This document shows, piece by piece, positions 9,601 through 15,600 of a DNA stretch of 64,000 bases. The first letter of the stretch is position 1. The number at the start of each line of letters is the position of its first letter. The DNA lies in assembly GCF_964355755.1 (NCBI RefSeq), contig NC_092674.1, forward strand, positions 1,245,001 to 1,309,000, read 5' to 3'. The position numbers and the translations under genes are program-made. This DNA is from Antedon mediterranea (taxonomy: Eukaryota; Echinodermata; Crinoidea; Comatulida; Antedonidae). The notes beneath the pieces are model-generated. The model had not been told where the DNA came from. It made no database searches and was given only the letters and a program-made list of their open reading frames with translations.

Positions 9601-12600
9601 TGACAGGCGCTTGCGTGCAAAAAAATCAAATCATCATTTGTACGCGTAGATTAAGAGCATCTTTGTTGTGTTAATGTTAATAGAAGGTATCTACTTACTG
9701 AATAATAATCATACCAACGATCATCCGGAATGTATGCGTTGACAGTATCTTTCCCCTAAAAATAAAATAGAAAATAAAAATGAGTATACAAAGTATTGAA
9801 GACTGGCGTCCGACGACATATGAACAAGGTCTCTAGGCCTAGGCCGCGATCGACAACATATCAATGCGTAAGCTCTTGGTCGCCGGTCATCACAAATCTT
9901 AAGCTCCCTATATTACCTCTTCGAGTACAGGAGTAATTAATAAAGCCTCCCTATATTACCTCTTCTAGTACAGGAGTAATTAATAAAGCTGGTCCCCACA
10001 GAAATTGCCAGTCAACTTCCCATGCATCGTCTTCTAATGGAAACCTGTAAAATACCAACGTAGTGATTAAAATTGAATTTGGCGCCCAGAATTTAAACAA
10101 CTAGAGGGTGAGCTCGCTTCGCTCGCTCCCCCTCTAGGAAGTGTAGACGATGGTTCTCGGAATGATAATGTTCTCCTTATACATTTTCTGTCGGTTACCA
10201 TTATTGAAAATGCTTGACATTCGTAAAACTGAACTACTTTGTTTCACAGTGTTTTAGATGATTAATAACATTTTAAAGTATAGTTTTTATTGTTTGGTAG
10301 GGCCCTTTGGGGAGGCGGAGGTCATTTGAGGGAGGTGCTTATTCGAGGGATATATGTTAAATTTTTTAGTTCTAATAATATGGTAACATTTATAATCAAA
10401 TGAAATCCTCTCATAGATATGAAAAGTGGTAAAAAAGAATAACAAATGCTTGGTAAATTGCAGATAACAGTGCGGTGAATTCTACTACAAATAGTATAAT
10501 TGTGTTATTATAAATATGTGGATGGACGTTTATTAGATAGTTGGGTTGTGGGGGGGGGGGGGGAGGGGGTTATTATTCAAAGTGATGTTTTATTGGAGAG
10601 GCGTTTATTCAAATGAATACCATCCTAATAATTATTAATACATTATTTAATTTAATCATCTTTTGAAACTAACTGCCGTGACAGAGTGGGCCCAAGAAAG
10701 AAGACATTACGACTTGCAACATGGGCAGACATCTCGGTCCTAACGGGACACAGGAAGATAGCCTACAGTTATTCCTGCAAGCTTACTCAATAAAACTCAG
10801 CTATCGGGATTTCACTCGAAAAATGTCTTATCAAATCTCCCTATGTAATTTTATAATACTATTCCCCACAATATATTCTGATTCTTTATGGCGTATATTT
10901 AATTTGATCTTTATTAATTTGCAGTATAATTCCTATTATTTAACTACTGTACCTTCACACACGTGTGGTATGTTTTAAAATAAACAAAAAACTGAAATGG
11001 CTATGATTAATGGCCAATTTTTTTTCCAAAGGGACACTGTATTGATTGATGGAAAGTGCCTGTTTCCAGTCACCTTTAGGGTCAAATCTATTATTTTAAC
11101 TGCTCCCTTGTGTATAAAAGAGAGAAAATATTTGAAACTAAGGTGAACTTATCTTAAACCCGGAAATTACTTTGACCGGGAAGAATTGAAATTGAGAGGA
11201 AAATCCAATGTTGAAATCATAAATGTTGTTAAAAAACTCTTTATAATATCTTCCTAAGATATAAATATGGAACAATAGCGTCGGCGTGCACACTAATGTT
11301 ATAAAATCTACGTTTCGCGGTACATCTCGGATAGATAAGGTAGGTATCCAAGGCGGAGATTTGTACAGAAGTTTTTGCATTGTGCTCGCCTATGTCAGAA
11401 TTAACCATAATTTATATATAGATAATAACATCTTGTGAGATATCTATTTTACACGTCACACGGAGAAAACAAATAATGGTACGCACTCATGGAAGATTGG
11501 TCTTGCTACAGTATTTCCATCGTATCTTGCGTGATAGAACAACGTATATAGATACGGTAGTAGACTGTATCTGGCGTCCATGGCACCTTTGATGTTTTTC
11601 ACCAGAGGATCCCCGTAAGAGGCTGGATCTTTGTCCTAAAATAGCAATGAAAACAAACATACAACTTATTTTTACTAGAATCATCTATTAACTTTACACA
11701 CAGCAGTTGGCAAAACAATACAGATTATTAGGAATATATACAACAACATTTAAATGGAAAGGTTGAGAAAAAAAGGAGCAAAGTTTGGCCACCTTAAAAA
11801 GGAAACAAGTAAAAAACATTTACAAACAATTTTTTTATAATAAAAAACATATTGGCTTAATACAAACTTAAACAAATTCTACTCACAGCTGTGCCTTTGG
11901 AATTATGATTTCTCATGAGCGGGTAGAAAGAGCCTAGTTGATGCCATCTTGTACACAGCTCTTCAGAGGAATCATTGTAATAACCACATATATCAGCTCC
12001 AACCTAGCAAATGTAAGTACATGTGAGACGTTTAAATCACAGTTGATGATGCAGATTGTTCCGTTTACTTATATTCGCTATATCTACATTATGTATTTCT
12101 CAGTAAAATTAATTAAAATATGTCAGCATTTGTCAGGTATTCTTTGAGAAAAGAAAACATTACAAAATAGGTAGCAAGTGAGACCAATACTCACATTTAT
12201 CAAATGTAAAATATAGGTAGAAATGGAAAAAAGAAATGTTGTATCCACTTAGAATAAATGTAGCTATACTTACGAATGGTATTCCGTTGATGTTCAACCT
12301 AAGCATTTCTGTTGAACAAAACAAAGCAAATGTTGAACTATTAATCACTAATATTAGTATAGTATTTGTATTTTGTGTAATTTAGTTGCTTTGTTCTTAC
12401 GGATTTGTAAAAACAGTGGACACACTCAGGCCGCTATTCTTATACAATTAATAAGATGGATGACTTATTACTAATACTAATAACTATAATATACTTACCA
12501 TGAATGGAGTAGAACAGCTCGTCCCATTCCGCTCTATTATGACCCATCCAGCCACCAGAGTATTTACCTGTACCGGAAAATGTGGATCTTGAAACTACCA

Positions 12601-15600
12601 TAGGTCTTTTATTCGCAAACACTATAGACCCAGCGCTAAAGAGAAGAAACGTAGAAACTAATAAATATGTAATTGACTTGGATTATCAACCTCCATGAGA
12701 ACAATTACACATAGTCTTCTACGCATGCGTCAATGTAAACCTCTCGAATGCGTCACTAACAAACGTCAACTTATCGTCATTTATACGCGTTAACTTTTTA
12801 AGCTCTGTCTACACTATCAGCTGGATTGACAAAAAAGTGTAATGTGCCCAAATATGGTAGTGATATACCTAAATATTGTAGTGATATGACATCATCATGT
12901 CCATATATATGGCACATCACATTTTTTTGTCACATAAAGTTTGATAGTGTAGACAGAGCTTTATACTGCGTTAACTGCATGTCTGATGTGTCTCATTGTC
13001 TATGCATTAACTTCACTTGTTTCAACTTACTAATGCGACGCCTGGGCACTTGAGTGACCATACAAGCTGTGCACGTCATAGTGATCTCCCCAAGTTTGTT
13101 TTGAATCCATGCAAAGCGTTTTAGCAAACAGCTTTGGTCCGTACTTCAAGTCTATAACAAGATCATTATATGTTGTTTTATTTATTTAAACACATATTTA
13201 TACAGGATAACATATATGATAATCAGTGTTTTTTCATTGTTACAGAGAATGTCTGCTAGCAAAAATGAAATGATAGAATGTATTATGGTATCATGAATCA
13301 TCCAGGCTCCATTACAAAATCATGGAGATCCTGAGATGATACCGGTGTGGTTTTTTTTTGTGTCTGCTTTTTTTTTTATTTAAACCTATTGATTTTATAA
13401 CTATGGAAGTCCGTTTCCAAAATAAGTAAATAAATGAATGAATAAACATGGTATGATGACGATATTGCAATTACAAGACATGATAATGGTTAGTTATATA
13501 GGAATAGCCTACAACATAATGATTAGGAAACTGGTTGACATACTTGGTGAATACGCTGGATAGTTAAGATAAGTGTCTTCGCATCCATTTCTGGTACCAT
13601 TCAACATATTTGATGGTTCGTTGTAATCCTATGAAGAAAATATCAAATAATTTTAAAAATAATCTACTTAACATGTAAAGCTGTGTTAGTATAGTAGATA
13701 ACCGACATAATTAAAACGTTAACGAAAAGATGAGAATGGTATAAAATAAACAAGCTGTTTCGAAAAGTGTACAATTTAGATACTTGACAAGTAAAGTATT
13801 TATATACAAATGATTACATGGTTGTTTCCCTTAATTTCTTTGTTTGAAAACTTACAATCATGATGCCATCGAATTCGATCAATTCGTGAAATTCCAGTAA
13901 ATTCTTCGCCCACCAATCATGTGCTCTTGGGTTTGTGAAGTCTACAAACACACACTCTCCACAAAAAGACTGATAATAGAAAAACACATTATACATACAT
14001 AAGTATATGAATCTTAGTAAATTCAGAACATTCACTTCACGTGACTATGCGGATAAAAATAATACATTTTGATATATTGCACATTTTTCTCTACCTTCCA
14101 GAGAGACTTCATCGATTGTTGTTCTTGATTGTTTAAAGTTACGTACAGTACGTAAACATTAACTTTCTTTTTAAAGAGAATTTTAAAAAAATCTTTTTGA
14201 AATTGTAGGCCTAATTGAACATTTAAAAAATGTCCACAATGATGATATGAATTAATGTTTCCAAAAGCAGCACGACCCATCTTATTCTTATTGCGTCATA
14301 TCTTACAAGGGTTTGTTACGTACCTCTCCTACTGTGGGTCTAAACTCTCTCTCTTGCTCCCATTTCCAATATTCACTTGGTGCCAGCGTCATGTTTACAT
14401 AAACACCCTGCCAGATTCCCTCATGGTATTGTGGGTAATCTTTTTTGTTTACTCCGTAAGGAATTGATGGTAGCTGAAGAACACAATCCTTAATATAAGT
14501 TATGATTATGAAACAGATTATTATGTCACTAGCTTAAAATAGATTTACAGAAAGTTACCAAAGAAACATTATGCTTTGAAAAGTAATGATTACCATAGTG
14601 ATGACATATTTCTGACTACGCATGTGCAGATCTTTGATGAATTTTGGTAAACCTTCGTAAGCATCCAGTCGAGTGTCATAGGTAAATGATCGGTATCTAT
14701 CCATGTAGTCTAGACCACTATAGAACGCCTCCTACAGTTGACAAAACAGTAACACAAACATAAATATAATCATTTATAATCTGAAAAAACATTCTGCATT
14801 GTCAATGATAATCATTTATTACATCATCGTCGTATTTATATGCGAATTTTTTAATGTTTAACTTAGTTAAAGTTCGTGACACATTTTATGACAATAATTT
14901 GTATATCTTATTTAAAAATCAAAACACTGAAAACAGTTTCGTAGAAAAGTTGGAAACAGTTTTAAGAAAGATAATCATACATTTATAATAACACATAATA
15001 CATTTATTATTTAAAAAAAAAACAAGATTTATCCAATTCTTACGACTGGTATTCCAGCTTCTCTGTTTCGTAGAGCAACAGATTGAAGTTCTTCTAAACC
15101 TCCCCAATTCTCATGACTTAGCTGATACCCTAAAGCCCAATATGGCGGGATCTCTGGCCTACCCAATGCCTACAAAAACAACGGATAGATAAAATGTAAC
15201 ATTCTTAAGATTACATAATATAAATATGTCTTAAAATAAGCTGATGTTTAAGGTTATCGGTAAATTGTTTTTACTATTGTAATAGGCAAGTTAGTTTGTG
15301 GACATCTGGTAATTCAAATTTGTCCAATGAAGCATATTTACCAATATATTGATTTTGTCTGTTATCAGGGTAAAGTGACTCACTCTTTCCTGTCTCTTAT
15401 CAATCATTTATTAACAAAACTCGTGGTTTACTCTTTTTATGTAAAGAGAAAGTACACACTTGGCATCTCAGTGAAGTGTCCACAAACGTACGTATGCAAA
15501 CAACAATGTAATGATAACATCTTAATGTAAATAAACAATATCGCAATACTACTATTATAGTACCTCGCACTGGGTTGTATCATTAAACATGAGTCACTGT

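Follow-up and report, generated by a model that had tools for sequence, protein, structure and literature searches.

In glycoside hydrolase family 31 (GH31), a nucleophile attacks and an acid/base residue protonates the leaving group and then activates water. The human GH31 enzymes NtMGAM and NtSI carry a type II membrane anchor. Glycosidase folds also occur in proteins without catalysis, such as 4F2hc and rBAT, type II membrane proteins with a GH13 glycosidase fold that are the heavy chains of transporters. GH31 proteins that lack catalytic residues are a known kind: the excerpted text of PMC8063059 describes sandfly and mosquito examples (LlLysAglu1 and NET37 clade IV) in which Gln replaces both catalytic Asp residues or Pro replaces the proton donor. 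Heparanase-2 (GH79) and the beetle plant cell wall pseudoenzymes are dead paralogues of active glycosidases that were kept and whose roles have been studied, according to excerpts of PMC12406646 and PMC6549527. Our searches, which covered an open-licence library, found no report of a catalytically inactive member of the trefoil-containing MGAM/SI branch. Here we describe a 64-kb window of the crinoid Antedon mediterranea (contig NC_092674.1; G000:C5:1245001-1309000 of a 354-Mb, 18-contig genome; 34% G+C), meaning the whole stretch of DNA that was analyzed, in which two GH31 trefoil genes, A and B, lie next to each other on the minus strand. Judged from its sequence, gene B most probably encodes a GH31 pseudoenzyme that has been retained, and decay of the gene is the less likely reading.

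The protein predicted from gene B aligns with NtMGAM and NtSI over nearly its full length, and its trefoil, barrel, and C-terminal domains are ordered as in those enzymes. It differs from them in a His at the acid/base position, in inserts found only in B, and in lacking the equivalents of D404, I441, W481, W516, M519, and F649 (numbered as in human lysosomal alpha-glucosidase, GAA). The dipteran proteins, in which the losses are of another kind, are set beside B as a likeness with no link claimed; B keeps its nucleophile and has His as the other residue. 4F2hc and rBAT belong to GH13 and have a known partner, whereas B belongs to GH31, and the Heparanase-2 and beetle cases come from other families with other substrates. 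Overall, B is probably an old paralogue of the animal MGAM/SI/GAA group in which alpha-glucosidase catalysis has been lost and the folded protein has been kept.

Active-site residues are replaced in gene B

Genes A and B were rebuilt with a custom spliced protein-to-DNA aligner guided by human NtMGAM, and some exon boundaries were then fixed by hand from splice-site reading and comparison of A with B. As a yardstick for the pocket we used the 13 ligand-contact residues of GAA given in the excerpted text of PMC5653652, transferred by aligning A and B with six other proteins (paralogues C, D, and F from the same genome, and human NtMGAM, NtSI, and GAA). There, the subsite -1 contacts are D404, D518, R600, D616, H674, W376, I441, W516, M519, W613, and F649, while W481 contacts a substituent of the inhibitor and D282 is at +1. 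D518 and D616 are assigned as nucleophile and acid/base, D404 hydrogen-bonds the -1 sugar, and W376, I441, W516, and M519 make hydrophobic contacts (PMC5653652, same excerpt). B matches 5 of these 13 contacts, which characterize the alpha-glucosidases of the GAA/MGAM/SI group, compared with 13 in A, F, and NtSI, 12 in C and NtMGAM, and 11 in D.

The acid/base residue of GH31, an Asp in the motif GDN, is His635 in B (CAT, 12539..12541, minus strand, as are all positions given for A and B) and corresponds to GAA D616 and to Asp582 (GAT) in A. Its codon lies in exon 12 (12499..12635), which also encodes R619 and W632 and contains [29 protein letters not shown]. The first-pass annotation had placed this exon, this codon, and both residue numbers exactly where they fall in the rebuilt genes. 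The nucleophile is retained as Asp535 (GAT, 13626..13628; GAA D518), and the W and M of the surrounding WIDMNE are Met533 (ATG, 13859..13861; W516) and Tyr536 (TAC, 13623..13625; M519), so that B reads IMIDYNEPS where A reads IWIDMNEPS. Gly406 (GGT, 14714..14716) stands for D404 and turns DIDYM into GLDYM. Both motif differences had been noted before and are borne out.

Three of the replaced pocket residues had thus been named correctly, and five more are added here: W376E (Glu378, GAG, 15110..15112; the residue is Tyr in NtMGAM, C, and D), I441T (Thr445, ACT, 14597..14599), W481F (Phe498, TTT, 13964..13966), M519Y, and F649Y (Tyr668, TAT, 11980..11982). Together with D404G, W516M, and D616H these make eight pocket changes, which are spread over exons 6, 7, 9, 10, 12, and 14 and cannot arise with fewer than 13 base substitutions among the 39 positions of the 13 contact codons. 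B also differs at further residues that are invariant in the other seven proteins, namely D443L (Leu447, CTA, 14471..14473), H612G (Gly631, GGC, 12551..12553), D413S, and R281L.

Five inserts of at least 4 residues are found only in B, two of them long. One, charged and 27 residues long, occupies positions 158-184 within the N-terminal domain and is encoded by exon 2 (17032..17267). The other, of 12 residues (479-490, [12 protein letters not shown]), is encoded by exon 8 (14324..14473) and follows GAA position 473, within the loop of insert I, which is bounded by A445 and F487 and is one of the loops to which PMC5653652 ascribes the shape of the pocket. In the loop that held W481, Phe498 is followed by a new Cys499-Gly-Glu-Cys502; none of the other seven proteins has Cys at either column. 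This CGEC (window 13952-13963) is a possible disulfide or metal site.

Catalytic residues are conserved in most other GH31 loci

The acid/base Asp is present in 7 of the 7 other animal sequences compared. In this genome at least 27 PF01055 matches were assigned by reading to ten loci (A to F and the intronless L009 to L012). Acid/base and nucleophile are both kept in A, C, D, and F in the alignment and were seen by eye in E, for which the model is poor, and in L009; in L011 and L012 the nucleophile motif, FKFDAGE, is intact. The exceptions among the ten are B and L010. Paralogue D (L003-L004, G000:C6, ~2085532-2098482), as predicted by an automatic model, keeps the catalytic Asp, has Tyr for W481, and has NYRAYAAF in place of the VWPG loop.

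L010 (L010:3-2138; G000:C11:7272503-7274638) is an intronless GH31 frame of 712 aa that resembles NET37/MYORG, runs off the fetched start, and is above the Pfam cut-offs for both GH31 domains. It reads FTFKYGQ where its neighbor L011 reads FKFDAGE, and LEPLHPTW where L011 reads MDKDSKW, the region in which the acid/base presumably lies. Its sequence makes L010 a candidate for a second GH31 pseudoenzyme; a copy that looks intact lies about 6 kb away.

A wider sample came from one scan of prokaryotic genomes with the alignment of A, C, F, and NtMGAM, which gave 47 GH31 loci. Because the scan patterns required WIDMNE or DID, the conservation of W516, D518, M519, and D404 is biased upward; the acid/base was not directly selected. 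Asp occupies the acid/base position in 46 of the 47 loci; the remaining one, L059, is gapped there, being a partial match to query residues 1-165 only. The nucleophile, whose motif is one of the two search patterns, is kept in 47/47. The other contact positions are nearly constant apart from W376 (Trp in 35/47) and F649 (Phe in 34/47, Tyr in 11), and the changes of B at these two are therefore the least telling. No relative of B was found in one scan of viral contigs. Searching 569 residues of B against the genome at the protein level returned 44 matches, of which those at 81-98% identity are B itself and the others are the remaining GH31 loci; no second copy of B exon 12 is among them.

Gene structure and origin

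Gene B (6694..18575) was modeled with 22 exons and 980 aa from the spliced alignment. The earlier claim that all 22 exons are open holds, as the rebuilt frame has no inner stop across 980 codons. In a PDB search the protein matches sucrase-isomaltase at E 1.8e-215, and also MGAM. The GH31 fold is recognized by PF01055 (305.3 bits, cut-off 23.5) and PF21365 (85.7 bits, cut-off 24.4), and Pfam finds the trefoil and the second and third GH31 domains. Exon 1 (18120..18575) contains the start codon, a hydrophobic stretch at about residues 9-30, and a P-type trefoil (PF00088, 26.6 bits, cut-off 21) that precedes the GH31 domains. This trefoil, which the first-pass annotation had called complete, has six Cys (45, 57, 73, 78, 79, and 94). 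The hydrophobic stretch is the only one at the N-terminus, with a Kyte-Doolittle mean of 2.6 over 19 residues.

Gene A (19168..30158), also from a spliced model, has 22 exons and 904 aa, no inner stop, and 21/21 GT-AG introns. Its pocket residues match GAA at 13/13, and its trefoil region has four Cys. Intron 11 of A contains a minisatellite with a 37-base unit in about 43 copies (window 23698-25284).

The two genes had been described as a tandem pair. They are adjacent, but the full-length tree pairs A with C and D (98/97) and puts B beside NtMGAM and NtSI (90/91). Identities are 42.0% for A-B, 49.1% for A-C, 45.1% for B-NtMGAM, and 43.8% for B-NtSI. On the full-length tree the approximately unbiased (AU) test gave p values of 0.0475 for A+B and 0.09 for A+B+C+D. 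With six bacterial rows added and the pocket columns removed, the order of A, B, C+D, F+GAA, and NtMGAM+NtSI is without resolution, and the corresponding AU values are 0.286 and 0.251. An origin of B as a direct tandem duplicate of A is thus disfavored by the full-length tree and not rejected with the outgroup, and we claim neither. Synonymous sites are saturated between A and B (NG86 dN 0.59, dS undefined), with third positions differing at 0.666 of 896 codons. Under either tree, B looks like an old paralogue from its sequence.

Retention, decay, and other explanations

In order to separate loss of the pocket from loss of the protein, we examined the 179 alignment columns that are invariant in the other seven proteins, of which B alters 33 and keeps 146. 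Loss is concentrated in the pocket, with 6/11 pocket columns changed and 27/168 elsewhere (one-sided Fisher p = 0.006). The same holds for columns within 3 (12/34 vs 21/145, p 0.007), 5 (14/41 vs 19/138, p 0.0045), and 8 (17/53 vs 16/126, p 0.003) columns of a pocket residue. As a control, each of the other seven was scored against the remaining six with B excluded; pocket changes were 0/11 in A, C, F, NtMGAM, NtSI, and GAA, and 1/12 in D (W481Y). An earlier control that included B, giving 0/5 pocket columns and 4-11 private changes each, is weak in that the changes of B shrink the invariant set. All 8 Cys columns common to the other seven are kept in B. In neutral simulations on the B coding sequence, 200 runs at 0.2 changes per site produced 26 stops on average and never fewer than 14, and every one of 200 runs at 0.05 per site had two or more; at 0.02 per site, 4.5% of runs were stop-free. 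Set against these runs, the lack of stops in B makes plain decay unlikely, though selection could have fixed the pocket changes without neutral changes accumulating elsewhere. The 980-codon frame, the pocket-focused loss, and the kept Cys residues together give good support at the level of sequence to the proposal, made in the first-pass annotation, that B is a retained pseudoenzyme.

Several observations weigh against this conclusion. The intact splice sites that had been cited in its favor stand at 21/21 GT-AG introns, with phases equal to those of A at all 21 places, but they are partly built into the model: the aligner permits only GT or GC donors with AG acceptors, and the boundaries of exons 1/2, 8, and 20-22 of B were placed with A as guide. 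Some donors are also weak (GTTCGT, GTACGT). PF13802 (the N-terminal mutarotase-like domain) and PF17137 are below threshold in B and are both matched by A. B has 33 private changes at 179 columns, compared with 5-16 at 184-195 columns for the others when B is left out, and its branch is the longest in the full tree (1.43 vs 0.30-0.94). The overall divergence and the two unmatched domains could reflect relaxed constraint. D535, R619, W632, H693, and D284 are retained, so some pocket chemistry could remain. The simulation is a guide only, as selection may have fixed the pocket changes quickly; retention is judged within one genome, and membrane anchoring is predicted from hydropathy.

These points bear on other ways to explain B. 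The His codon could reflect an error in sequencing or assembly, or Asp could be encoded by an alternative exon. It is one codon, a single base from GAT, but seven more pocket residues are changed in exons 6, 7, 9, 10, and 14, and the genome matches hold no other exon 12. With eight changes in six exons no single error produces them, and neither one wrong base nor one error can explain what is predicted here, which makes this explanation barely credible. B might instead be an enzyme gene in early decay, in which catalysis was lost and the protein is unneeded while the frame is unbroken so far. The long branch, the excess of private changes, and the two unrecognized domains fit such a history. 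However, the 22 modeled exons have no stop or frameshift despite the many base changes in the pocket codons, drift at 0.05 changes per site leaves no run intact (though a few runs at 0.02 are), and 146/179 invariant columns and every shared Cys are kept, so that we regard early decay as highly improbable.

B could also still be an enzyme with a rebuilt pocket, using Asp535 as nucleophile with His635 or with no acid/base on a different or activated substrate, such as in transglycosylation or on a sugar other than glucose. Some glycosidases are known to lack the acid/base or to have His (GH1 myrosinase, GH3 Nag3), the equivalents of the nucleophile and of R600, W613, H674, and D282 are kept, and the insert found only in B changes the pocket rim. 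Against it, the Asp that bonds the -1 sugar and the hydrophobic contacts were replaced together, and a residue other than Asp is found at the acid/base in 0 of the 46 prokaryotic relatives having the position. Invariant pocket residues are kept at 5/11, compared with 141/168 elsewhere; as they are kept no more often than others, there is no sign of selection for catalysis, and we consider an altered enzyme improbable. The first-pass annotation had suggested a sugar-binding or scaffold protein; on the former reading, B would be a lectin-like receptor that leaves its sugar uncut. Five pocket residues remain, and a second acarbose is held by the GAA trefoil in a crystal described in the excerpted PMC5653652. 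This suggestion is weakened by the replacement of the equivalents of D404, W376, I441, W516, and M519. The Trp126 that stacks in the GAA trefoil is Asp in B, which says little given Ile, Lys, and Tyr in C, D, and F. A sugar-binding receptor is distinctly improbable, and a retained, catalytically inactive protein is the preferred account of B.

Other features of the window

Elsewhere in the window are two nearly perfect tandem arrays, with 66 copies of 29 bases (99% matches) at 60933-62848 and 43 copies of 23 bases (97%) at 39252-40248, and a homeodomain exon at 44120-44530 (PF00046, 60.3 bits). Short copies of a dispersed repeat occur at 7133-7290, 9425-9625, 12802-13053, 23122-23346, and other places, some of them inside introns of A and B; by eye, their chance translations share words like CDVPKYGSD. 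Downstream of B on the minus strand, frames at window 412-2374 are organic-solute transporter-like by eye, with two pieces giving no Pfam match alone.

Proposed role of gene B

The single N-terminal hydrophobic stretch makes a location on the cell surface plausible, and B would be a membrane protein of type II that faces either the cell exterior or the secretory lumen. Lacking the equivalent of D616, it should neither protonate a leaving group nor activate water, and the loss of D404 and of the hydrophobic contacts should leave it unable to hold the -1 glucose. From its sequence, then, B should not hydrolyze alpha-glucosides at a useful rate. Since the residues that would hold the sugar are replaced, binding in the old pocket appears less likely than a role at the surface, as a scaffold or partner. 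Selection may act there, with B serving another protein, membrane-bound or secreted. Our guess, reached by exclusion and by analogy with the transporter subunits of GH13 fold, is that B acts as a scaffold or partner anchored in the membrane. By position only, the transporter-like frames at 412-2374 are a possible partner.

Much more tentatively, B could be one of a class of pseudo-maltases that is old and lineage-wide, made up of membrane-bound trefoil GH31 proteins in which the active site was converted into a different one (CGEC loop, changed rim, charged N-terminal insert) and which became obligate partners of a transporter or of active maltases, in parallel to the GH13-derived 4F2hc and rBAT.

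If B is a retained pseudoenzyme, its annotation as a maltase from similarity would be wrong, and the MGAM/SI branch of GH31 would be added to those glycosidase families whose fold has outlived its catalytic activity. The intact neighbor A would provide a natural positive control, making both the loss of activity and a new role of B directly testable.

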